In this document: piece after piece, positions 7,047 through 23,995 of the stretch | How positions within the stretch are numbered: position 1 is the stretch's first letter | How the letters are laid out: the number at the start of each line of letters is the position of its first letter | Assembly (NCBI RefSeq): GCF_007744075.1 | Contig: NZ_CP036266.1 | Location: 3,581,748 to 3,645,747, forward strand | Reading direction: 5' to 3' | Length of the DNA stretch: 64,000 nt | DNA from: Gimesia chilikensis | Lineage (GTDB): Bacteria; Planctomycetota; Planctomycetia; Planctomycetales; Planctomycetaceae | Notes under the pieces: model-generated | Told to the model about the DNA's origin: nothing | Databases searched by the model: none | What the model saw: the letters and a program-made list of their open reading frames with translations, nothing else | Position numbers and translations under genes: made by a program

Positions 7047-8068
7047 CAGATGGTTCCGCGTGCAATCTGTTCTTTAATCCAGGGGATGACCTCGTCCAGC
7101 ATCTGATCCAGAGTGGTGTCGGCGGTGAAGCCGAGCATGTCTTTTGCTTTCTCAACTGCGGGAGAGCGATACTGCACATCGTGTGGGAATGGCTGTTCGC
7201 TTTGATAGCGGAAAGGCTTATCGGGCCCATGAATTTTCTGCCAGATCGTCTCGGCCAGTTCGAGGACCGTCGTCGCCTGGGGGGTGGAGAGGTTGAAGTC
7301 TTCGTTGAGGGCCTGGGGATGTTCGACACAGAGCCGGATGCCCCGGGCGAGGTCTCCGCCGTAGGTGTAGTGACGGACCTGCGAGCCGTCGCCGAGAATC
7401 TGCAGCGGGTCCTGCCCTTTCATGATTTTCTGAACGAGGTCGGGGACGACATGGCTGAGAGCGAGTTCGATATCACCCGATTTGACATCTTCATCGGTGA
7501 CTGCCCGGCGTTCTCCGATGCCGACGCAGTTGAAGGGGCGGGCAATTGTGTAAGGCAGACCGTATTGCTGATGTGCTCCCTGGGCATAATACTCCACGGC
7601 GAGTTTCTGAAAGCCGTAGGTCGATTCGGGAGGCGGGCAGGTGCGCTGGTCCCCTTCCTGACTGGGAAACTGCTGCGCACATTCAAAGACCATCGACGAG
7701 GAAATGACGGTGATTTTCTGCAGTTGTCCTTCACGATGGGCGGCGAGAGCCGCGTCGAAAGCGGCCGCTGTGATGCGTTCATTTTCTGCGAGCAGGTCGT
7801 AGGCGAATTTGTGGAAGTAGGAAATACCGCCGATCATCGCGGCGCCGGCGATGAAGTGATCGCAGTCCTTGAGCAGCCGACTGAGCAGGTCGATGTCTTT
7901 GGCATCGGCCTGCAGGAATTCGTAGCGGGGATGTCCCTGGTGAGCGGGACTTAATTCGCCGTACTTGGAGAAATTGTCCAGACCGACGACATCGTAGCCG
8001 GCCTCCAGCAGTTCTCCGACAACATAACTGCCTATAAACCCGGCGGCGCCGGTAATCAGAACTTTCAT
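7046..8068 (-). CDS. NAD-dependent epimerase/dehydratase (extended SDR)
   Basis: This 340-residue enzyme acts on nucleotide sugars. The Rossmann motif is TGAAGFIGSYV at residues 6-16. SSSMVF supplies the catalytic Ser region and YGFQK the YxxxK pair. A C-terminal block HYTYGGDLARGI is typical of UDP-glucose 4-epimerase and dTDP-glucose dehydratase relatives. Substrate cannot be fixed from sequence. It is preceded, with a 4-nt overlap, by the nucleotide-sugar dehydrogenase and followed by the GT2, so it probably converts the oxidised sugar nucleotide before transfer. Confidence 0.9.
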   Translation of the reverse strand: MKVLITGAAGFIGSYVVGELLEAGYDVVGLDNFSKYGELSPAHQGHPRYEFLQADAKDIDLLSRLLKDCDHFIAGAAMIGGISYFHKFAYDLLAENERITAAAFDAALAAHREGQLQKITVISSSMVFECAQQFPSQEGDQRTCPPPESTYGFQKLAVEYYAQGAHQQYGLPYTIARPFNCVGIGERRAVTDEDVKSGDIELALSHVVPDLVQKIMKGQDPLQILGDGSQVRHYTYGGDLARGIRLCVEHPQALNEDFNLSTPQATTVLELAETIWQKIHGPDKPFRYQSEQPFPHDVQYRSPAVEKAKDMLGFTADTTLDQMLDEVIPWIKEQIARGTI

Positions 8069-9288
8069 GGCTCCTGCCTTGTTGTGAATCCAAATACGTC
8101 AATCAGGGGTTTGGTGGTCTGTAAACTGCGATACTCGTCGTGACAGGCCCCGAGGATCAGAATGTCTGACTCCTGCTGAATGGTTTCGAGCGAAACGAAA
8201 TCGGAACTGTCGATGAAGGGATCGGTACAAAGCACCCGCCGGCATTCCAGCGTCAGCACTTTTCTGAGTTTGTACGATAAAGAACTCCGAGGATCATCGC
8301 AATTCCCCTTGAAGCCCATTCCCAGAATCCCGACCGTCAAGCCGGTCAGGTCGTGATTTTTCTTGAGTCGTTCCACAATGAACCCGGGGAGTCCCTCGTT
8401 GACCGCCATCGCAGTCTGACCGAGGGTGAGCAGGTTGTGATTGAAGGATGCCAGCTGCATGGTGTCTTTGAGCAGACAGGGACCGCCGGCAAACCCGGCG
8501 CGGGCAAAGCCGTTCATGCGGGGGTACTTGTAGGTGATCGCATGATAGATGCGGTCGAAGTCGGCCTCGTAACGCTGGGCCAGCATGTAGAACTGATTCG
8601 AGATCGCGAAGTTAATGTAGCGATAGGAATTGGTAAACAGCTTACCCAGTTCGGCTTCGACGGGAGAAAGCTCGATGACTTCCTGACCGAAATCGGAGAA
8701 GAAACTGGCCGCCCGCTGTGCTGCCTGTGGGGTACAGCCGCTGACTAACTGGGGGAGTTGTGTCAGTTCCAGGAGTGCCCGACCCTGGGCAATCCGTTCG
8801 GGGCAATAGGAGACATCGATCTGCAGGTCACGTTCGGCGACGAGTCGCCCCAGTCGCTGGGTGACTCCGGGGAAGACCGTACTGCGAATGATAAGTAACT
8901 GACCGGGGCGGCAGTGCTGGAAGACATCTTCCATCACCTGATCGAAGGCTCTGAGACTGGGGTCGAGATATTCATCAACCGGGGTGCCGATGGTGACGAT
9001 GATCACATCCTGTTCGGAAAGCGCCGTGAAGCTCGTGGAACAATGCAGGCGGCCGGATTCGAGAACTCGCGGTAGAAGCTGGTCCGCGTTGATTTCCTGG
9101 AACGGCATCTGGCCGGAGCGGATTGTATCGAGCTGCGCCTCGTTGAGATCGACGAGCGTTACCGTGTGTCCGCAGTCACACAAGGCCAGGCCGAAAGGGA
9201 GTCCCACATGACCGCCTCCCCCGATGATGGCCACGCGGAGAGGATGTTGCACCTGTGTCGTCTCTGTCTGTCCCTCTTGCGCGTTCAA
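8065..9288 (-). CDS. UDP-sugar 6-dehydrogenase family protein
   Basis: This is an NAD-dependent dehydrogenase of the UDP-glucose/UDP-ManNAc dehydrogenase family, about 407 residues. The GGGGHVGLP nucleotide-binding loop, the TIGTPVDE strand, the catalytic Cys in FAGGPCLLKD and the GMGFKGNCDDPR segment are all present. The ATG-like start at 9402 would overlap the upstream GT39 gene by 83 nt and add a basic, His-rich tail foreign to the family. A TTG at 9288 has AGGAG 7 nt upstream and leaves a 31-nt gap, so it was preferred. The 3' end overlaps the epimerase by 4 nt. The product is presumably a UDP-uronic acid for a surface polymer. Confidence 0.88.
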   Translation of the reverse strand: MNAQEGQTETTQVQHPLRVAIIGGGGHVGLPFGLALCDCGHTVTLVDLNEAQLDTIRSGQMPFQEINADQLLPRVLESGRLHCSTSFTALSEQDVIIVTIGTPVDEYLDPSLRAFDQVMEDVFQHCRPGQLLIIRSTVFPGVTQRLGRLVAERDLQIDVSYCPERIAQGRALLELTQLPQLVSGCTPQAAQRAASFFSDFGQEVIELSPVEAELGKLFTNSYRYINFAISNQFYMLAQRYEADFDRIYHAITYKYPRMNGFARAGFAGGPCLLKDTMQLASFNHNLLTLGQTAMAVNEGLPGFIVERLKKNHDLTGLTVGILGMGFKGNCDDPRSSLSYKLRKVLTLECRRVLCTDPFIDSSDFVSLETIQQESDILILGACHDEYRSLQTTKPLIDVFGFTTRQEP

Positions 9289-11002: not shown

Positions 11003-11953
11003 TTATTGCGGCAGGCATTCCAGAAGGCCGAGTACCGCCCAGGTGGTGCCCCAGTAGACGGCAGTTTCTTCGATGCGATCTTTCTTCTTGGCTTTGGTCC
11101 CTTTGACCGGCCAGGAGCCATCTTTTTTCTGAGTCGAGATCAGAAACTGCTCCGCCCGTCGGACTGGGTCGGCCTCTAAATCAACGCCTGCTTTACGGAG
11201 GGCGTACAGTGCCATGCCGGTGCCGAGGGCATCGCTGGGATCGCTGGTGAGCCAGCCCCAGCCACCATCATCGTGTTGCAGGCTCTGTAATTGCTGGATC
11301 ATCTGGTCGCGCTGCTGGTCTTGTTTCTGGCTGGTCGCGAGCAAGAGTTTCATGACGTACCATTCGGTGCTTTTGCCCGGTGCACTCTTGTCGATAAAGG
11401 TCTGGGCCTGCTGGATGGTCTTTTGATTTTGAGGATCATCGGCGGCGGTCAGCAAACCGAGCGTGAGCCACATGGTACTTACGGCATCGGTTTCCGGTTT
11501 GGGACGCTTCTGAAAGGGAAGTTGCCCGCCTGCTTTCCAGGAGCCGTCGGGCCTCTGATCGACACGCAGCAGACCGATCAGTTTTTTGCGGGTTTCCGGA
11601 TCTGAGTTGGCTGGCGTAAATGCGAACAATTGCTGGACTACGCCTTCTTTATTAGTCGTCCCCGCGATCTGGCCTTTGTCGTTCTTGGCCAGTGCCTTAT
11701 CGTTGGCCCAGTCGGTCCATTCCTGCAGACGGTCGCTGACGGTGAAGCCATGCTGCTTCGCGTTCTGCAGACTCCAGAGCATGGTTCCCACGCGGTGGCA
11801 GGACGCACATTTCTTTTCCTCAATCCACCACAGGCCCTGTTTTTCAATATACGGGATGCTGCGCTCTACGGTCGACCGAACTTCGGCGGTGGTGGGCTGG
11901 GCGTCGGAGACTGCGCCGGTCAGAGCGAGGAGGAGTGAGCTGAAGAGGAACAT
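11003..11953 (-). CDS. Secreted squalene-cyclase-fold repeat protein with CxxCH motif
   Basis: This 316-residue protein has a signal peptide (cleavage near SDAQP). A single c-type haem motif CASCH lies at about residues 49-53, followed by an alpha-toroid of the prenyltransferase/squalene cyclase type. QW-like repeats are visible as RPDGSWK, HDDGGWGW and KKDGSWPV. The DxDD motif of class II cyclases is not seen, so a catalytic terpene role is unlikely. Haem attachment in the periplasm is inferred from one motif; without other cytochrome features CASCH could instead bind metal. The gene has a potential promoter (TAGAAT) just upstream and is adjacent to the glycan operon. Confidence 0.82.
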   Translation of the reverse strand: MFLFSSLLLALTGAVSDAQPTTAEVRSTVERSIPYIEKQGLWWIEEKKCASCHRVGTMLWSLQNAKQHGFTVSDRLQEWTDWANDKALAKNDKGQIAGTTNKEGVVQQLFAFTPANSDPETRKKLIGLLRVDQRPDGSWKAGGQLPFQKRPKPETDAVSTMWLTLGLLTAADDPQNQKTIQQAQTFIDKSAPGKSTEWYVMKLLLATSQKQDQQRDQMIQQLQSLQHDDGGWGWLTSDPSDALGTGMALYALRKAGVDLEADPVRRAEQFLISTQKKDGSWPVKGTKAKKKDRIEETAVYWGTTWAVLGLLECLPQ

Positions 11954-15312: not shown

Positions 15313-15789
15313 TTACTCAAACTCGATATCAGTAATCACGGTACCCGGGGGGAGGTCTTTAACCTGATCGTGGATCTGGCCGTGGACGCTGACGTGCACG
15401 GCGACGTCGATCGGTTCGATGTTATCGAGTTCATCTTCGCCACTGAGGACGAGGGGCGTCTGGTGGCCGTAGACCTGGCCCGGTTCCAAGGTGACGCCGG
15501 CATCGCGAAGTTCCAGCACGCGGGCGGGAAAGAACAGGTCGGTGACGAAATCGGGATCCTGAAGCAATGTTTCAAATTCGCTGCTGTCCTCGGCGACCGG
15601 GGAGATCTTGCCTTCGACCATATCGGCAAAGTAGATGGCCCCCGATTCCCCCTGCGCGAAGACGTCCCCCATGGCGGTGACCAGTACGGTCTGCATCGAT
15701 TCGGGCATGGCCCAGGTCCAGTCGTCGAGCAGGACCTTGCAGTCGACCTGATCCAGATTGATTGTCAAATCATTTAATGTGAGTGCCAC
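15313..15789 (-). CDS. Tdi1/DUF1851-type immunity-like protein
   Basis: This 158-residue cytoplasmic protein has the layout of the T6SS Tdi1 C-terminal/DUF1851 family: GDVFAQGESGAIYFADM, then a SSEFETLL helix and a C-terminal strand-rich tail. The family protects against or accompanies type VI-delivered toxins in some bacteria, but many members have no known role. No toxin or T6SS gene lies in this window. The SUKH-like gene 15906-16760 is next to it on the same strand, with a 116-nt gap. Confidence 0.7.
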   Translation of the reverse strand: MALTLNDLTINLDQVDCKVLLDDWTWAMPESMQTVLVTAMGDVFAQGESGAIYFADMVEGKISPVAEDSSEFETLLQDPDFVTDLFFPARVLELRDAGVTLEPGQVYGHQTPLVLSGEDELDNIEPIDVAVHVSVHGQIHDQVKDLPPGTVITDIEFE

Positions 15790-16760: not shown

Positions 16761-17264
16761 AATGCGACTTAATCAATGTGCAAGAAGGACGTTCCAGTAG
16801 CGAGAGCGTACCAGATGTGAAAAGACAGTCAAGCAGGATCTATCACACTGAAATTCCAGTGTCCTGGTAATGAATGATAGAGAGGAAATTCCCGCTACGG
16901 GCAGAGATTTGCAGAGGAGAGCAAAAGTTTGCAGATGGTTGTCTGGTCAAAATACCCTTGGTTTTACGATTGCCGAGAGAAAAAATGTAACATCAGCTAC
17001 AAATTCATACAGGTTCTTAACGTGAGACTCGCTCTGGTATGCAGCCCGGGAAAAAGATCGCAACTATATTGATTTGACTTACTTCGGTCATGTTCAAGGA
17101 GTGAGAGTCAGATTCTGTCAGGAGACTGGTGGATAGGAAAAATACCTATGCGGGAACTCAGGGGAATTCCTGCATTTGAAAACGCGGTATGGGGTTTGCT
17201 TTTCAAGATTAACAACGCGGCCAGGAATATTCATTTTTCCTCCACTTGAAAGGAAGGTGCTCAA
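16761..17264. other. 504-nt intergenic region upstream of the secreted-protein array
   Basis: No convincing gene is seen. The last 46 nt form a leader shared with the paralogue at 18858. A small palindrome around GGAATTCC (17162-17169) is the only other structure noticed. Confidence 0.5.
17219..17264 (+). promoter_or_regulatory. Conserved leader shared by GHWWY family genes, copy 1
   Basis: GGCCAGGAAT at 17219, then TTGAAAGGAAGG at 17246-17257 and TCAA directly before the ATG. The copy before 18858 has the same blocks at nearly the same spacing (46 versus 47 nt from GGCCAGG to ATG). It contains the Shine-Dalgarno; the upstream block may be a post-transcriptional or transcriptional site. Confidence 0.5.
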
Positions 17265-17750
17265 ATGAAAGGCCTTAGTTTAAAAGTGTTGACTGTGACT
17301 GCAGCGTTGGGGCTCTGTCCTCTGCTGTTGTCAGCCCAGGTCCAAACTCCTCCCGATGCACAACCGAATTCGGGCGATCAGCTGCAGATTGATCCGGTCG
17401 TTCGTGCGGGAACCGCGCATCTGAATCTGGACGATGCAACCCGGGCCCGGTATCGCTACCATGACGGTCACTGGTGGTTTAAGACAGCTCAGAATGGCTG
17501 GCTGGTGGAACAGAATGGTCAATGGGAAGAATTTTCTCCCATGACTTACATTTCTCAGTCCTCATCTGCAACTGCTCAAACGACTCAGAACGACAACACG
17601 GGTAACGCCCAGACCACGGGGAGTGGTAATTACTACTATGGAACCCAGTACACATCGGCTGGTGCCCACAAGCCATTCAGTCACCACCATTTTGGTGGGG
17701 CACAGTTTGGTCACTGGGGAACCGGTTATCGTGGCTGGAGTGCTCACTGA
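17265..17750 (+). CDS. Secreted GHWWY-module protein, paralogue 1
   Basis: This 161-residue exported protein has a signal peptide (MKGLSLKVLTVTAALG..., cleavage after LLSAQ). The common module at about 44-95 reads DPVVRAGTAHLNLDD, RYRYHDGHWWF, then WLVEQNGQWEEFSP. The C-terminus is Thr/Gln/Asn-rich, then Tyr/Gly/His-rich, ending GTGYRGWSAH. Cysteine-free and low-complexity at the end, it looks like an envelope or matrix protein. Function unknown. Members follow at 18858, 20320 and 21242. A strong intrinsic terminator lies at 17913-17950. Confidence 0.8.
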   Translation: MKGLSLKVLTVTAALGLCPLLLSAQVQTPPDAQPNSGDQLQIDPVVRAGTAHLNLDDATRARYRYHDGHWWFKTAQNGWLVEQNGQWEEFSPMTYISQSSSATAQTTQNDNTGNAQTTGSGNYYYGTQYTSAGAHKPFSHHHFGGAQFGHWGTGYRGWSAH

Positions 17751-17912
17751 GTTTAATCCTGTCCGGCTCTGACCTGATAGGCCTATAGCGCCGCGAGGCC
17801 AGAAATCAGGTCAGCTGACGGAGTTCAGGAGCTGCTGACTGCTCGAAGTGACTCGCTTAGATGAAACGTTCATCAGGATCTTCGGACGGTCATCACAATC
17901 AGGAGTGTGTTT

Positions 17913-17950
17913 AAGGCAGACCAGTAGCTTGTTGCTGATCTGCCTTTTTT
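17913..17950 (+). terminator. Intrinsic terminator, repeat type shared across the array
   Basis: A hairpin with arms AGGCAGACCAG and CTGATCTGCCT followed by TTTTT. Nearly the same sequence stands after the second paralogue at 20089-20128 and a degenerate copy after the fourth. It also lies 25 nt beyond the stop of the convergent gene 17975-18493. Confidence 0.8.
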
Positions 17951-17974
17951 GCTGCGCTGATACTCACAGGCGAT

Positions 17975-18493
17975 TCAATCTGTGTCCCTGGTGATGAACT
18001 CAATGGTCAGTTCATTTTGTCTGCCATGCATTTCTGCGAAGTGGAGTGCGAGGATCCAGGATGTGTGGCTGGGGAGACAGATCGTTGCTCCGGGAGCCGC
18101 GGAGAGGATCTGATCTGTGAATGAGGGCCCCAGCTGTTTCAGATGTTGCGGATCGTGCCAGTCCATGCGACAGAGCAGGCATTGGCCCGCCTCTGGATGC
18201 AGGGGAACCCCACAGAAGCGGCAGGGAACCGTGTCCGGCGTTACCAGGGGATGGGGACCGTCTTTGTGCTGAGCCCAGATTTTGGCCCACGTTAAACGGC
18301 AGCCTGTTCTGGTGCGCAGGGTTTTGATGGTTTCAAAAAGGCTGGCCTGTTTGAGTTCTGTCCGCTCTTCTGGAGTGATGTCTGCGAATTCGGGGATATA
18401 GAGACCGCAGGCGGGGCAGAAGATTCCCCGCGCGGGTAACTGAGTTCCAAGGCCCTTGATTTCGGCGCGGGTATAAGGGACTGGTGAAGTCAT
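17975..18493 (-). CDS. Zinc-ribbon hypothetical protein
   Basis: This 172-residue cytoplasmic protein carries several CxxC pairs: CPAC near 26-29, CRFC and CLLC in the middle, consistent with two zinc-binding knuckles. No enzyme motif is visible. The C-terminal 50 residues are hydrophobic with a beta-strand pattern ending ELTIEFITRDTD. It is embedded, in opposite orientation, between paralogues 1 and 2 of the secreted family and converges on terminator 17913-17950. Any link to that family is unproven. Confidence 0.65.
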   Translation of the reverse strand: MTSPVPYTRAEIKGLGTQLPARGIFCPACGLYIPEFADITPEERTELKQASLFETIKTLRTRTGCRLTWAKIWAQHKDGPHPLVTPDTVPCRFCGVPLHPEAGQCLLCRMDWHDPQHLKQLGPSFTDQILSAAPGATICLPSHTSWILALHFAEMHGRQNELTIEFITRDTD

Positions 18494-18857
18494 GGTTGAT
18501 ACGATCCCTGCAGGAAATTCGATGCGAGTCGGGTTTGAAAAAATTCTGGTATTTGTTTTTTCGAACGAAGGAACGACACCCGAGCACTCTTACTGGTTCG
18601 TTGTTCAGAGTTCGGACAAGATCAACGGGTGGCTGGTCTTACAACGGGCAACAGTCTGGCGGATTTCAGACCGGCATGACCGCTCATCGTTCGCCGCCCA
18701 ATTCTGCTGATCTGTCTGTGAGTGGCAAAAGCGCGACATTCTGTCGCTTTTGGGGTGATTTCAGGTCTTTTTCTCAAGTTGGTATGCCGGTTGCGATTGT
18801 CGAAAAGCGTGGCCAGGAAATACCACTAATAACAATAATTGAAAGGAAGGATTTCAA
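18494..18857. other. 364-nt intergenic region upstream of paralogue 2
   Basis: A 125-codon plus-strand frame exists here but its composition is unlike a protein gene and it overlaps both neighbours, so it is not called. The region ends with the conserved leader at 18811-18857. Confidence 0.5.
18811..18857 (+). promoter_or_regulatory. Conserved leader shared by GHWWY family genes, copy 2
   Basis: GGCCAGGAA at 18811, TTGAAAGGAAGG at 18839-18850 and TTTCAA before the ATG at 18858. It matches copy 1 upstream of 17265 while the sequence between the blocks differs. Confidence 0.5.
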
Positions 18858-20024
18858 ATGAAAGGCCTGAGTTTAAGAGTATTGACAGCAGCGACAGCGC
18901 TGGGGATCAGTCCCCTGCTTCTGTCCGCACAGTTAGAGACAGGTGCACAACTCGACGCAGGGGCCAAAGCAGCCGGCAAGGCTGTTCAGGGAGCGGGCAG
19001 CAAAGCTGCCGCTGGTGCTGATGCCGGTGCGAAAGGCGCAGTGCAGACGCCAAACCGAGATGCCGCTCCTACGCCGCCAAACACAAAGACACCCGGTAAA
19101 GCGCTGGATCAGGCGCCTCCCAAATTAGATAGTGAAACAGATGCAAATCTGAAGGGTAAGACGAACGTTCCGACACCCGGTGAAGCTGATTTGAAAGGTA
19201 AATCAAACCTGGATGGCAAGGCGAATGTTCAGACTCCCGGTGAAGCCAACCTGCGAGGAAAAGCAAACCTGCAGAATAAGACAGATGCCGACCTGAACGA
19301 CGGTGTCAACCTGCAGAACGATGCTGATGCCCGGATCCAGGGAAACATGAAAGCCGATGGTCCTATGCGTCGCCGGACCAACCGTCCTAATATGGATGCT
19401 GAAGGAAGCGTCCAGGGGCAGGTCAATGGAGACATTGATCCCATGGTTCGAGAAGGGACTGCTCATCTCGACATCGACGAAGCAACCCGTGCCCGGTATC
19501 GTTACCACAACGGTCACTGGTGGTATCAGACTGAAAATGGTCAGTGGTTGTTCGATAATAATGGAAGCTGGGAATCTTTTGATCCTATGACCTACCGGAA
19601 CCCGCGTCAGCAGATGGCACCGCCACAGACATTTCAGAACGACAGTGATGGAAATGCTCAGGTTGATGTAGATTCAGGTGCTTACTACTACGACAACTCA
19701 CCCGGTAATGGTTACTACTACGACAATGGTTCGTACTATAGTGGTAACTATGGAAGCCCCTATTACAACAACCGTGGACGTCGATTCTACAATGGTCGCG
19801 GTTACTACAACGGTGGCTACTATGGTGACGGATACTATAACCGTGGTTACAACAATCGTGGTTGGAACCAGGGTTGGAACAATGGTCGTTATGGAACCGG
19901 TTACCGTGGATGGTCACGAGATCAACGCCAGGGAGCCGCAATCGGTGCTGGAATTGGTGGTTCACTCGGTGGTCGAACCGGAGCTGCCATTGGTGCCGGA
20001 ATCGGTGCTGAAGTTGCCGACTAG
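18858..20024 (+). CDS. Secreted GHWWY-module protein with repeats and glycine zipper, paralogue 2
   Basis: This 388-residue protein is the largest of the four paralogues. After a signal peptide (cleavage near LLSAQ) comes a low-complexity Ala/Gly/Lys region, then repeated PGEADLKGK/NLxGKANVQ units (about 100-165). The shared module follows at 194-246 (RYRYHNGHWWYQ, WLFDNNGSWESFDP). A Tyr/Gly/Asn-rich tract (260-355) with many YY pairs precedes a C-terminal glycine zipper, GAAIGAGIGGSLGG then GAAIGAGIGAEVAD, a motif used by membrane-embedding proteins. No Cys. Export and surface location are inferred; function unknown. Confidence 0.8.
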   Translation: MKGLSLRVLTAATALGISPLLLSAQLETGAQLDAGAKAAGKAVQGAGSKAAAGADAGAKGAVQTPNRDAAPTPPNTKTPGKALDQAPPKLDSETDANLKGKTNVPTPGEADLKGKSNLDGKANVQTPGEANLRGKANLQNKTDADLNDGVNLQNDADARIQGNMKADGPMRRRTNRPNMDAEGSVQGQVNGDIDPMVREGTAHLDIDEATRARYRYHNGHWWYQTENGQWLFDNNGSWESFDPMTYRNPRQQMAPPQTFQNDSDGNAQVDVDSGAYYYDNSPGNGYYYDNGSYYSGNYGSPYYNNRGRRFYNGRGYYNGGYYGDGYYNRGYNNRGWNQGWNNGRYGTGYRGWSRDQRQGAAIGAGIGGSLGGRTGAAIGAGIGAEVAD

Positions 20025-20088
20025 TCTTAATTCGGCAAGGAGGAATCTGATCAATTGAGTTTGATCATTCCATAAAGGAGTATGTTTA

Positions 20089-20128
20089 AGGCAGATCAGC
20101 CCAGCCCTGAAGCTGATCTGCCTTTTTT
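20089..20128 (+). terminator. Intrinsic terminator after paralogue 2
   Basis: GGCAGATCAGC (20090-20100) pairs perfectly with GCTGATCTGCC (20112-20122), followed by TTTTTT. It is nearly identical to the terminator at 17913-17950. Confidence 0.85.
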
Positions 20129-20319
20129 CGTGCGCGGTGAAAAAGTGGATGTGCAGGATCTTGTTGATTTGTGATGAGGAGAACGGTTCAAAATGTGTTG
20201 TCTGGAGCTTGTTTCTGGTATGATAGAGAGACTGCAATGCTGCTCGCTGTCTGTGATCTAAGTGGTCTGAAACGAGCGCTGACATTCAGCAGGATCTGAA
20301 ATGAACAGGAGTATTTTCC

Positions 20320-21072
20320 ATGCAAGGCCTCCGTTTCAAAAAGTCGATTGCGGTACTGGCGTGGGGCATCGGTCCCCTGCTCTGCTCAACACCGGCAGTG
20401 AATGCGGCGAGTGAGGTGGATCGCGATGCCGGTCCGATCGCTGCCGAGAAGCCGGTCACGGAATCTGCGACTGATGCTCCCGAGCAATCGGATGCGAAGG
20501 GAAAACAGCCAAAGCTGTCACCGATCAAAATCGATCCGGTAGTTCGCGAAGGAACAGCGCATCTGGATATCGATGAAACGACACGTTCCCGCTACAGCTA
20601 CTATAACGGACACTGGTGGTTTTATCTGGGAGACGGCAACTGGATGATCTCCAGGAACGGAAAATGGGAGGATGTGGATACTTCCCGGTATCATCAATCG
20701 CAGCAGAAGATGGGATCGTCGGGAGCCGCCGTCCAGGGTGGTGCTAAACCTAAGTTACAGTCTGGCACTACAAGGTACTACGACGATTCTCCCGCCTATG
20801 GCAACTACTACGGGAATGGTACCTACTACGACGGGAGCTACACCCGCCCCTTCTATAACAATAACGGCCGGGGAGATTATGGGCGCGGTTATTATGGCAA
20901 TGGCTTTTACGGACGCGGCTACTACGGTCGTGGCTATTACGGAAACGGTTACTACGGACGTGGTTTGAACAACGGTTCCAGCAACGGGCGCTGGGGGACT
21001 GGAGCGGGTGGATATTCGGGAGGCCGGGGATTCGGTTCCTCCGGTGGTGCCGCAATTGGTTTTGGGCCGTGA
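20320..21072 (+). CDS. Secreted GHWWY-module protein, paralogue 3
   Basis: This 250-residue exported protein has a signal peptide (cleavage near AVNAASE). The shared module spans about 70-125: IDPVVREGTAHLDID, RYSYYNGHWWFY, WMISRNGKWEDVD. The rest is a Tyr/Gly/Asn/Arg tract with GYYGRGYYGNG-type repeats. Unlike the other members it starts MQGLRFKKS and its Shine-Dalgarno is CAGGAG. A candidate promoter with TATGAT lies at 20219-20224. Tandem repeats of GYYG resemble adhesive or matrix low-complexity proteins, but no homology is claimed. Confidence 0.8.
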   Translation: MQGLRFKKSIAVLAWGIGPLLCSTPAVNAASEVDRDAGPIAAEKPVTESATDAPEQSDAKGKQPKLSPIKIDPVVREGTAHLDIDETTRSRYSYYNGHWWFYLGDGNWMISRNGKWEDVDTSRYHQSQQKMGSSGAAVQGGAKPKLQSGTTRYYDDSPAYGNYYGNGTYYDGSYTRPFYNNNGRGDYGRGYYGNGFYGRGYYGRGYYGNGYYGRGLNNGSSNGRWGTGAGGYSGGRGFGSSGGAAIGFGP

Positions 21073-21147
21073 CTGATAGATTCGATCTTTATCCCTCAGG
21101 ATTTGTCGAGCGGAAATGCTCTGTTTGCAGCGGAAATAGTGAAAAGC

Positions 21148-21175
21148 TTGCGTTTTGGTCCAGAGTTGGTATTGT
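21148..21175 (+). promoter_or_regulatory. Candidate promoter of paralogue 4
   Basis: TTGCGT and TATTGT with a 16-nt spacer, 66 nt upstream of the ATG at 21242. Moderate match to a sigma-70-like pattern. Confidence 0.35.
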
Positions 21176-21241
21176 GAATAAAAGATTCCCTGTTTAACCA
21201 GGTTTGCCTATTTGCTCTGGAGATAAAAGGACGAAATTCAA

Positions 21242-21775
21242 ATGAAAAGCCTTTGTTTGAAAGTAATGACCGTAACGGTGGCGTTGGGAGTCAGTCCTCT
21301 GCTCCTGTCCGCACAGAAAGTGACTGCAGATTCTGAGGTAAAACTCGACCCGATTGTGGCAGAGGGAACGGCCCATCTGAATCTGGATGACGCGACCCGG
21401 GCTCGTTATCAATACATGAACGGCCACTGGATGTATCAGACTGAAGAGGGCAAATGGCTGGTCCATAAGGACGGAGCCTGGAAAGTGGCTGATCCGACCT
21501 TCTATACAGTCCCGCCGTTGCCACGGCCGGGTGGAAATCCGCTGGGACCCTATTTTGATCAATTCATCCCCGAGTACGCCCGCTGGGGAGCCATCCGTCC
21601 CATCGGAAAAGCGTATTATGATCAGTTTATCCCCGCCAATGGCAGCTGGGGATATGACGGTCCGATCGGTACCGCTTACTACGATCAGTTTATTCCTGCC
21701 AACAGCGACTGGGGATACAATGGACCGATTGGCACCGGCTATTACGACCAATACATTCCCGAATACGCTTATTGA
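21242..21775 (+). CDS. Secreted GHWWY-module protein with 21-residue repeats, paralogue 4
   Basis: This 177-residue exported protein has a signal peptide very like those of paralogues 1 and 2 (MKSLCLKVMTVTVALG). The module at about 36-87 reads DPIVAEGTAHLNLDD, RYQYMNGHWMYQ, WLVHKDGAWKVADP. Instead of a Tyr/Gly tract it ends in three and a half 21-residue repeats of the form YYDQFIPANGSWGYDGPIG. The Shine-Dalgarno AAAGGA lies 9-10 nt before the ATG. A weaker copy of the shared terminator follows. Function unknown. Confidence 0.8.
   Translation: MKSLCLKVMTVTVALGVSPLLLSAQKVTADSEVKLDPIVAEGTAHLNLDDATRARYQYMNGHWMYQTEEGKWLVHKDGAWKVADPTFYTVPPLPRPGGNPLGPYFDQFIPEYARWGAIRPIGKAYYDQFIPANGSWGYDGPIGTAYYDQFIPANSDWGYNGPIGTGYYDQYIPEYAY
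21551..21772 (+). repeat. Tandem 63-bp coding repeats within paralogue 4
   Basis: Three full 21-codon units and a partial fourth. Each unit starts (Y/F)YDQ(F/Y)IP-like, has a Trp at position 12 and ends PIG plus two residues. The first copy is the most divergent. Confidence 0.8.
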
Positions 21776-21799
21776 TCCCAGCGATATAAAGACTGTTTC

Positions 21800-21838
21800 A
21801 GGCAGATTAACCACTGTAGTGTGTTGATCTACCTTTTC
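21800..21838 (+). terminator. Degenerate copy of the array terminator after paralogue 4
   Basis: AGGCAGATTAAC and GTTGATCTACCT pair with one mismatch and one G-U, followed by TTTT. It matches the two stronger terminators at 17913 and 20089. Confidence 0.6.
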
Positions 21839-21860
21839 TGTTGCGCGGTGCGAGATTCTG

Positions 21861-21888
21861 TTGACAGCTTTGCTTTGCGATTTATGAT
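21861..21888 (+). promoter_or_regulatory. Sigma-70-like promoter of the pyruvate-kinase-like gene
   Basis: TTGACA (21861-21866), 16-nt spacer and TATGAT (21883-21888). The start codon is at 22064, leaving a leader of about 170 nt. Confidence 0.6.
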
Positions 21889-22063: not shown

Positions 22064-23995
22064 TTGTCGGCAGAACAAGGTGACTCCGATTACCTTTCCG
22101 GTCATCAGGAGTATCAACAGGTCTTTGAGGAACTGGTTGTCGTTCGAGATAGACTGGTGGCAGAGGTCGTCTGCTCACAGCCTCTGCTGGATCAGATTCA
22201 CGTGCAACATCGCGAAAGTGCGCGGAACCTGTTGTACTATCTGGCACTCAGACGTCGCGACCTGAGACCTTTGCAGATACGACTGGCGGCGCTGGGACTC
22301 TCTTCCCTGGGACGGGCGGAATCGCATGTCATGGCGACCATCGATGCCGTTCTGGAAATGCTGCAGAGACTGCTTGATAAGACCACAGATGTTACAGACT
22401 CCGGCGAATCATCAATCGATTTCAACACGGGGGAACGATTGCTGGCGGCGCATGCCGAATCGCTGTTAGGGCCTGCTGCCCCGGGACGCGGCGTGCGGAT
22501 TATGGTGACGATGCCCAGTGAGGCCGCCGATGATTACGAGTTGATCTATCACCTGTTGCAACAGGACATGGAGTGCATGCGGATTAACTGCGCGCACGAT
22601 GATGTGGAAGCCTGGTCGCGGATGATCGCACATCTCCGCCGGGCCGAGCATGCATTGGGAAAGCGGTGTCGAGTTGTGATGGACCTGGGCGGTCCTAAAC
22701 TGCGGACCGGTCCGCTAGAGCCGGGTGCTGCTGTGGTCAAGGTGCGTCCCCGCCGTGATGAGTATGGCCGGGTGATCGCTCCCGCACGCATCTGGCTTTA
22801 CCCGGCTGAGCAACCAGCGGCCTCCCCTGCCCCCGCGGATGCCTGTCTGCCGGTCGAGGCGGCCTGGCTGAAGCGTCTGGAAGTGGGCGATAAAATCAGG
22901 CTGATCGACGCCCGCCACTCGCGACGGAGTTTGCGAGTGGTCGATTGTCTGGATCAGGGTTGCTGGCTCGAAGCGAACAAGACAACCTACCTGGTGCCGG
23001 GAACGACATTACGCTTACGGAGTCATAAAGGTAAAAAACTGAGAGCGACAGAAATCGTCGCGGTATCGCCCCGCGAAAACTGTCTGCTGCTGCATCCGGG
23101 AGATCAGTTGATCGTCACCCGGGATCAGACGCCGGGACGACCCGAGGTGCGGGACAGTGCCGGACAGGTACTGACGCCGGCCCGGATTGGTTGTTCTATT
23201 CCCAGTGTCTTTAATGATGTGCAGTCAGGCGAGTCGATCTGGTTTGATGATGGTAAAATTGGCGGCGTGGTGGAAAAAGTTGCATCGGATCAGGTGCAGG
23301 TGCGGATCACACAGACCCGTCTACAGGGGGCGAAGCTCAGGGCCGACAAAGGGATCAATCTGCCTGAGAGTCAACTCCGTCTCCCCGCACTGACGCAGCA
23401 GGATCTGGAAGACTTGTCGTTCGTCGCGCAGCATGCGGATGTGGTGGAACTCTCGTTTGCTAATCGGGCGAGTGATATCGAACAGTTGCAGTCAGAACTG
23501 CAGCGGCTGGACGGACGGCAGCCGGCGATCGTCTTGAAAATTGAAACCCGGCTTGGTTTTGAAAATCTGCCGGATATGCTACTCACGGCGATGCGTTCCC
23601 CCTGTTGTGGAGTTATGATTGCCCGCGGCGATCTGGCAGTCGAGTGCGGTTTCGAACGGATGGCGGAAGTGCAGGAAGAGATTCTCTGGATTTGTGAAGC
23701 TGCCCACGTTCCGGTGATCTGGGCGACGCAGGTGCTGGAGACGCTGGCCAAAGAAGGCATGCCCTCTCGCGCGGAAATCACCGATGCCGCGATGGGGCAC
23801 CGGGCGGAATGCGTGATGCTCAACAAGGGCCCCCACGTATTACATGCGGTCAAGACGCTGGATGATATTTTAAGACGGATGCAGGCGCATCAGACCAAAA
23901 AACGTTCGATGCTCCGCGAACTTCGATTAGCGACTCACTCTTCAGGAAAACAGGACCAGGATGGACATCAGAGCAACGACGTCAACGGATCTTGA
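22064..23995 (+). CDS. Atypical pyruvate-kinase family protein
   Basis: This 643-residue protein retains the pyruvate kinase core. RINCAH (173-178) matches the RxNxSH segment, DLGGPKLRTG (207-216) the phosphate loop, KGINLP (429-434) the post-B-domain strand. Catalytic and metal residues are kept: LKIE (K492, E494) and MIARGDL (D523); ATQVLETL and PSRAEITD follow. Two features are unusual: a helical N-terminal extension of about 140 residues and an enlarged B-domain region (about 220-425). The C-terminal regulatory domain is missing; the protein stops soon after the barrel. TTG is the start, with GAGG 7 nt upstream. Activity on phosphoenolpyruvate is likely but unproven. Confidence 0.85.
   Translation: MSAEQGDSDYLSGHQEYQQVFEELVVVRDRLVAEVVCSQPLLDQIHVQHRESARNLLYYLALRRRDLRPLQIRLAALGLSSLGRAESHVMATIDAVLEMLQRLLDKTTDVTDSGESSIDFNTGERLLAAHAESLLGPAAPGRGVRIMVTMPSEAADDYELIYHLLQQDMECMRINCAHDDVEAWSRMIAHLRRAEHALGKRCRVVMDLGGPKLRTGPLEPGAAVVKVRPRRDEYGRVIAPARIWLYPAEQPAASPAPADACLPVEAAWLKRLEVGDKIRLIDARHSRRSLRVVDCLDQGCWLEANKTTYLVPGTTLRLRSHKGKKLRATEIVAVSPRENCLLLHPGDQLIVTRDQTPGRPEVRDSAGQVLTPARIGCSIPSVFNDVQSGESIWFDDGKIGGVVEKVASDQVQVRITQTRLQGAKLRADKGINLPESQLRLPALTQQDLEDLSFVAQHADVVELSFANRASDIEQLQSELQRLDGRQPAIVLKIETRLGFENLPDMLLTAMRSPCCGVMIARGDLAVECGFERMAEVQEEILWICEAAHVPVIWATQVLETLAKEGMPSRAEITDAAMGHRAECVMLNKGPHVLHAVKTLDDILRRMQAHQTKKRSMLRELRLATHSSGKQDQDGHQSNDVNGS

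Follow-up and report, generated by a model that had tools for sequence, protein, structure and literature searches.

The window analyzed here is a stretch of 64,000 nucleotides from Gimesia chilikensis (contig NZ_CP036266.1, positions 3,581,748 to 3,645,747), taken from a genome that forms a single contig of 8.29 Mb. It contains four plus-strand open reading frames (ORFs), genes 1 through 4, each encoding a protein with a signal-peptide-type hydrophobic N-terminus, a shared module of 54 residues, and a tail of its own (Table 1). A preliminary description had presented these genes as four consecutive members of a secreted protein family; the four ORFs are indeed there, although a minus-strand gene that is probably outside the system separates genes 1 and 2. 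This intervening gene is kept in two of the four other genomes with a clustered arrangement (G141 and G097); the G126 and G150 clusters showed no copy of it. The N-terminus (MKGLSLKVLTVTAALGLCPLLLSAQ in gene 1) ends in LLLSAQ in genes 1, 2, and 4 and is diverged in gene 3, and 21 columns of the module are invariant among the four proteins. The commonality of both parts is borne out by a DNA repeat search of the window, which recovered two four-copy families, one comprising 98 nucleotides of the module (71–79% identity to the reference copy) and the other 99 nucleotides of the start and signal peptide (61–77% identity). The C-termini differ as had been claimed, with a Tyr/Gly/Asn tract to be added to the Gly-zipper of gene 2. 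When gene 2 was compared with the whole genome, the other three genes were found at E values of 5e-41, 4e-29, and 1.5e-18, with no further place at E ≤ 1, and a 20-row module profile likewise returned these four places only at E ≤ 10. Judged by sequence, genes 1–4 are a real family of exported-looking paralogues, and most particulars of the preliminary description prove correct.

Table 1. Positions of the four family genes and their associated features in the window
Feature	Position	Strand	Description
Leader of gene 1	17246-17257	+	TTGAAAGGAAGG, probably Shine-Dalgarno
Gene 1	17265-17750	+	161 aa; signal-peptide-like start, module, Thr/Gln then His/Gly tail, end GTGYRGWSAH
Module of gene 1	17388-17549	+	54 residues
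Terminator hairpin 3' of gene 1	17913-17950	+	AAGGCAGACCAGTA..TGCTGATCTGCCTT plus T run
Intervening gene	17975-18493	-	172 aa; sub-threshold zinc-ribbon match
Leader of gene 2	18839-18850	+	TTGAAAGGAAGG, probably Shine-Dalgarno
Gene 2	18858-20024	+	388 aa; signal-peptide-like start, Ala/Gly/Asn/Asp/Lys linker, module, Tyr/Gly/Asn tract, GTGYRGW, C-terminal Gly-zipper
Module of gene 2	19434-19595	+	54 residues
Gly-zipper of gene 2	19932-20021	+	GAAIGAGIGGSLGGRTGAAIGAGIGAEVAD; PF13488 15.3 bits, curated cut-off 25
Terminator hairpin 3' of gene 2	20088-20128	+	AAGGCAGATCAGC..GCTGATCTGCCTTTTTT
Gene 3	20320-21072	+	250 aa; diverged signal-peptide-like start, module, YYG/RGYYGNG tail
Module of gene 3	20530-20691	+	54 residues
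Gene 4	21242-21775	+	177 aa; signal-peptide-like start, module, 21-residue YYDQFIPxxxxWGYxGPIGTx repeats
Module of gene 4	21344-21505	+	54 residues
Degenerate hairpin copy 3' of gene 4	21800-21839	+	3 mismatches

No cysteine occurs after residue 22 in any of the four chains. Past residue 30, genes 1, 3, and 4 are without any 12-residue stretch of mean hydropathy above 0.85, and a Pfam scan found no match to PF13488 (Gly-zipper_Omp) in them; stretches of the same length in the zipper of gene 2 reach a mean of up to 1.46. The statement that the module has no family name holds for the collections searched, as genes 1–4 gave no Pfam or NCBIfam match above cut-off. A known domain with a defined function was also sought in the PDB, where no sequence matched at E < 0.33, and this explanation of the module was rejected. 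Ten further proteins of the class (Planctomycetia), compared with Pfam only, gave no match above cut-off either, the nearest being a low-complexity HSP70 match at 18 of the required 20.6 bits. Among PHROGs, phrog_17990 (function unknown) weakly matches the module of gene 4 (E 0.015).

The two halves of the module have different distributions. The DPxVxxGTAHLxxD half was seen only in Gimesia, where profile searches detect the module in 12 of 17 genomes, and a profile search of the phylum yielded no convincing match to it outside the genus. The remaining half corresponds to a class-wide core, [W/A]RYxxHNGxWWYxxxxxxWMxxxxGxW, in the version that Gimesia carries. Outside the genus, the full 54-column profile matched 8 of 392 genomes of the phylum at E values from 4e-7 to 8e-4; seven of the eight belong to the class. 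A match in G179 to columns 1–36 (E 7.7e-4), within a 2862-residue frame whose visible part we take to resemble a nonribosomal peptide synthetase, was set aside as unlikely; G179 is unlisted by the non-Gimesia core profile described below. A profile of 37 columns, combining 9 Gimesia cores with 7 others, found the core in 44 of 347 class genomes and 20 of 170 genera, with 12 of the genomes in the genus; the 44 include four marginal genomes (best E 0.005–0.009), and these counts are lower bounds, only part of the first-look candidates having been scored in many genomes. Eight other families of the class carry the tryptophan half at E ≤ 1e-5.

The relationship is confirmed in the reverse direction. 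A profile of 18 non-Gimesia cores, a selection of those seen, returned 35 places, located in precisely those 12 of the 17 Gimesia genomes already identified, and detected the window genes at E values of 1.7e-9 to 3.1e-7, and hhalign aligned the Gimesia modules with these 18 cores over 37 columns at a probability of 98.9 (E 3.8e-17). At E ≤ 0.001, the same profile matched 15 of the 392 phylum genomes, seven Gimesia and eight others, all in the class. Residues R4, W12, W21, and W29 are invariant in all 16 core rows. In Gimesia, Ala or Ser precedes the core arginine (W-R in the others), no proline follows WWY, and gene 4 has WM rather than WW; the missing W-R, proline, and doubled WW indicate that Gimesia is a diverged branch of the core group. 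Other genera of the family to which Gimesia belongs almost lack the core, with one marginal match in G059 (E 0.009), and the patchy distribution could reflect either loss or transfer. A broader domain group of the class, without a name, appears to include the four genes. The earlier view of a lineage-specific system thus survives for the GTAHL half and fails for the class-wide tryptophan core and for the plan of gene 2, which recurs in two other genera.

This recurrence is seen in six proteins (L067–L072) of genera g59 and g61 that show, by eye, the order of parts of gene 2: a signal-peptide-like start, an Asp/Ala/Asn-rich linker, a core of the form WR[YF]K..NGxWWY[WY]TPxxxWM, a Tyr/Gly-rich tract, and a C-terminal Gly-zipper-like end. 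Most of the other class core proteins examined also carry, by eye, a signal-peptide-like start and low-complexity linkers. One core per chain is the rule, with two in L111 and L144. The largest set belongs to G584, with eight core matches (L111/L137, L138, L151, L155, and L156), two of them in the L111 protein.

Within the family Planctomycetaceae, a full-protein profile (E ≤ 0.01) matched 9 of 150 genomes, all Gimesia. We sorted the 35 places in the 12 family-bearing genomes into four copy classes named after the window genes: copy class 2 is present in all 12 genomes, copy classes 1 and 4 in nine each, and copy class 3 in four. These counts follow our own sorting and include one gene-2-class copy cut by TAG and one on a partial contig. 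The presence of gene 4 in relatives rests on profile searches, as the cluster comparison took an antisense frame in its place. Among named genomes, the family profile found five loci, all in two Gimesia sp. metagenome-assembled genomes, and a scan with the lone gene 2 sequence gave no relative; near records may be missing from both scans. A plasmid search with gene 2 gave no match. Two matches in G097 (L019 and L027) contain an in-frame TAG, and their proteins may be shortened or decayed. In G119 (L177, 3079–4285), only the 3' part of a gene-1-type copy remains, directly behind a transposase-like ORF that is presumably of IS3 type, with a similar hairpin still recognizable by eye.

The clustered arrangement is found in G000, G141, G126, G097, and G150, with the same neighborhood across the stretches compared, and gene 3 was not found in the G150 cluster. 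Identities to the G126 and G141 counterparts are 96 and 99% for gene 1, 94 and 97% for gene 3, and 85 and 95% for gene 2. In a tree of 34 of the 35 intact places (the G131 gene-1-class copy, L172, is absent) over 76 columns, in which 10 of 27 inner branches are well supported, gene 3 groups with copies of G097, G126, and G141 (support 100/100), gene 4 with the G131/G146/G151/G155 set (88/89), and gene 1 with copies of G097, G126, G141, and G150 (98/92). The gene 1 clade lies inside a larger, internally unsettled group (93/98) that also holds dispersed gene-1-like copies and the gene 4 clade. The tree leaves the fork of gene 2 unsettled, and this gene was placed with MLRR-type proteins by architecture and by an R-x-TNRP motif seen by eye in some of them. 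The three separate loci at which G131 and G146 each carry copy classes 1, 2, and 4, and the two that carry classes 1 and 2 in G136, rule out a purely local tandem duplication. In G131 and G136, the gene-1-type copy has as its neighbor the GDPD-type gene that the window carries a few genes ahead of gene 1, and thus the location of gene 1 is probably the ancestral one.

The family genes had also been described as sharing leaders and terminators, such that whole transcription units seemed to have been duplicated. The likeness of the leaders is partial: the exact TTGAAAGGAAGG occurs only ahead of genes 1 and 2, a related AAAGGACG precedes gene 4, and neither is found upstream of gene 3. The element reads as what is probably an ordinary Shine-Dalgarno sequence (AAGGA), most relatives have a GGA-type Shine-Dalgarno-like stretch at this position, and at least two matches with up to one mismatch arose in 6 of 100 shuffles of the window, leaving a special regulatory element unsupported. 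The hairpin AAGGCAGAYCAG..GCTGATCTGCCTTTTTT stands 3' of genes 1 and 2, with the 17-base 3' arm and T run identical, a degenerate copy follows gene 4, and no terminator of this type was found downstream of gene 3, so that here too the likeness stops short of one gene. Folding z-scores are −3.6, −5.4, −1.3, and −2.5 for genes 1 to 4. In the whole genome, the 17-base arm with its T run has two exact sites, one at one mismatch, and six at two, and the reversed arm has none; this near-uniqueness disposes of a generic terminator repeated genome-wide. A simple consensus terminator scan of the window did not list the family hairpins and gave two sites against a shuffle mean of 4.7, fewer than its shuffles, which counts against the hairpins as terminators; the case for them is made by the folding z-scores and by comparison among relatives.

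In other species, a related hairpin often follows copies of classes 1 and 2 that lie at unlinked loci. When 17 arm pairs, 12 of them distinct, were aligned by hand, pairing held in 184 of 187 cells and two-sided changes occurred at 6 of 11 positions, counts that lean towards pairing because the alignment was made by eye on pairing. It omits copies too different to place (gene-2-class of G131, G146, and G151; gene-4-class of G151 and G155), near-identical ones (G141 gene 1 and three of G150), and genes for which no hairpin was found (the gene 3 copies, the gene-4-class copies of G131 and G146, and two of G097). Because these related hairpins with compensatory changes accompany scattered copies, we read the family as the product of old duplications of entire transcription units that preceded the species split, which agrees with the duplication originally suggested.

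A second short element accompanies the core. Of 36 representatives clustered at 50% identity, several of them still Gimesia relatives, 15 have G[YF]RG in the tail behind the core, whereas shuffling each tail 1000 times produced it in 2.06 on average and in at most 7; for the wider form [STA]x?[GA]YRG, the observed count is 17, the shuffled mean 0.61, and the shuffled maximum 4. Among 318 other ORFs of the same loci, GYRG is present in three and the wider form in five. One of these three is a core protein missed by the pattern, and the other two are small Tyr/Gly-rich proteins near the G131 gene-1-class copy. The latter, at 7565–8074 and 8454–8804 on the minus strand of L172, are SGYRG proteins with no Pfam match at E ≤ 0.001. 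A speculative extension, to which we attach little probability, is that the tryptophan core and [ST]xGYRG form a two-part attachment code, belonging to a surface or matrix system that part of the class possesses, by which exported carriers of both would join the same envelope or fiber layer; in Gimesia the helical half DPxVxxGTAHLxxD would have been added to this code, and copies of it would now serve in one anchor (gene 2) and in as many as three coat subunits that can replace one another.

An AlphaFold2 model of the module, computed from an alignment of nine sequences taken from the window and related loci only, has a mean predicted local distance difference test (pLDDT) score of 74.6 and a predicted template modeling score of 0.54. 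It places two short helices on the GTAHL half and four strands on the tryptophan half (residues 26–29, 32–36, 42–46, and 49–53) as a β-meander, with pLDDT near 85 up to residue 50. The model of gene 4 shows the same meander at lower confidence, its repeat tail not being resolved. Comparison of the module model with the PDB gave as the top Foldseek row a choline-binding domain (3hia, E 0.56); the second-look alignment listed eight rows with Z ≥ 2, none of them such a chain. A WW domain (2ltx) appeared at a weak Foldseek E of 2.3, and no Pfam WW match was listed.

We consider it somewhat more probable than its negation (roughly 55%) that genes 1–4 encode paralogous exported proteins of the envelope or matrix, among which the product of gene 2 is anchored in the outer membrane through its Gly-zipper. 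The hydrophobic N-terminus, the shared module, the class-wide homology of the core, the recurrent architecture, and the duplicated transcription units are established at the level of sequence, and from them we infer every functional step, including the surface or matrix role. After export, the core would fold as a four-stranded aromatic β-meander and bind a common partner, for which a surface polysaccharide or a further matrix protein is the most likely candidate, and the tails (the Tyr/Gly tract, the Thr/Gln tract, and the YYDQFIP repeats) may mediate packing or cross-linking of a coat. The C-terminal Gly-zipper of gene 2 would insert in the outer membrane, making this protein the anchored member, and genes 1, 3, and 4 would supply soluble subunits with the same core; the [ST]xGYRG element could serve as a second contact or a sorting signal. 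Gene 2 is the likely anchor because it has the sole zipper in the cluster, its copy class is present in all 12 family-bearing genomes, and its plan is seen outside the genus. Rosettes, stalk-joined aggregates, and fibers over the whole cell surface are reported for the Gimesia strains of one species description (PMC7716864), a setting that would suit envelope or matrix proteins of this family.

Several observations weigh against this interpretation. The Gly-zipper match of gene 2 falls under the Pfam cut-off, and an extra gene-2-like copy in G126 has no zipper; an in-frame TAG cuts the gene-2 copy of G097. Only genes 1 and 2 have the GYRG element intact; gene 3 carries a degraded version (GTGAGGY), gene 4 none, and 21 of the 36 representatives are without it. 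Confidence in the AlphaFold model is moderate, the other four of the five models averaging pLDDT 59–62, and the module model has no significant fold relative in the PDB (best Foldseek E 0.56, best Z 2.9), although a null match of this kind is no proof of a new fold. Finally, the family is missing from 5 of the 17 Gimesia genomes, of which three have a completeness of 96% or more. It is not essential for the genus, as its absence from G038 and G110, each 99% complete, shows.

A different role for the core would make these proteins adhesins rather than matrix components: a carbohydrate-binding aromatic β-hairpin unit of the choline- or glucan-binding type that docks on the cell's own or algal polysaccharide. 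The three tryptophans at fixed spacing (columns 12, 21, and 29 of the first row), the G-x-W turns, the choline-binding domain at the top of the Foldseek rows, and the single core row of 16 that touches Choline_bind_4 (E 0.15) all point in this direction, but neither score is significant (E 0.56 and 0.15) and the choline-binding chain drops out of the second look. Choline-binding and glucan-binding families are tandem arrays, whereas the present core occurs singly as a rule, and we regard this alternative as fairly improbable. Slightly less probable in our estimation is a function in periplasmic or outer-membrane integrity, of the envelope-stress Gly-zipper type, in which the low-complexity segments would act as spacers and the proteins would not be exposed at the surface. 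Linkers of this composition could span the periplasm, and gene 2 shares a Gly-zipper-like C-terminus with its counterparts from other families, yet genes 1, 3, and 4 have no zipper, and the Tyr/Gly-rich tails appear more suggestive of an extracellular matrix than of the periplasm.

Fast-evolving secreted effectors or antimicrobials with diversifying tails would account for the variable C-termini, the gene content that differs between relatives, the broken copy in G119, and the Tdi1_C immunity-like neighbor at 15313–15789. However, no toxin family was matched in Pfam, NCBIfam, or PHROGs, whole orthologues of genes 1–3 are conserved in clustered species (85–99% identity to G126 and G141), and the architecture of gene 2 recurs in another family of the class, which is unsuited to an arms race; we regard this explanation as very improbable.

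Relative to known systems, genes 1–4 are an uncharacterized protein family of a familiar kind. The C-terminal GAAIGAGIGG-type repeats of gene 2 and L068 resemble Gly-zipper_Omp (PF13488) and YMGG (PF13441), respectively, but score under the cut-offs (15.3 against 25 bits and 14.5 against 28.9), the rest of the protein is unrelated, and genes 1, 3, and 4 are without such a repeat. With choline- and glucan-binding repeats (Choline_bind_4 and kin) the core has G-x-W turns and, in its predicted fold, possibly aromatic β-hairpins in common; it differs in its usual single copy and in the want of a significant score, whole proteins giving no match to choline- or cell-wall-binding families at E ≤ 1. 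The likeness to the YTV-domain cell-wall proteins of planctomycetes (PMC8567305) is one of envelope setting only, these being cysteine-rich, unlike genes 1–4. The same study presents PF07595 as a planctomycete cell-surface export signal that marks surface proteins; genes 1–4 do not match it at E ≤ 1 and have ordinary-looking hydrophobic starts instead. A literature search of an open-licence library, where a missing paper may still exist in print, turned up nothing recognized as this family. New here are the class-wide core, confirmed reciprocally, the GYRG motif that accompanies it, and the old duplication of transcription units together with their hairpin. How the planctomycete envelope, with its protein-rich walls, stalks, fibers, and pits, is built from its components is poorly understood, and a small core without a Pfam or NCBIfam name, which exported-looking proteins from many families of the class have in common and which often comes with a short motif, offers a hidden Markov model handle on candidate envelope or matrix proteins otherwise called hypothetical. 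For testing, the Gimesia cluster is a compact case that combines a single likely anchor with three proteins that are likely subunits.

The surroundings of the cluster include a minus-strand gene for a 158-residue protein (the neighbor at 15313–15789) that matches the C-terminal domain of the type VI secretion system immunity protein Tdi1 (PF08906, 42.5 bits, cut-off 27.4). Farther upstream, a minus-strand gene at 11003–11953 encodes 316 residues with squalene-hopene-cyclase-like repeats (PF13249 and PF13243). On the other side, a plus-strand gene at 22064–23995 encodes a 643-residue protein with a pyruvate kinase barrel at residues 341–587 behind a long N-terminal extension, and a sigma-70-like site on the plus strand (TTGACA-16-TATGAT, 11 of 12 matches) lies at 21861–21888, between gene 4 and this pyruvate-kinase-like gene.

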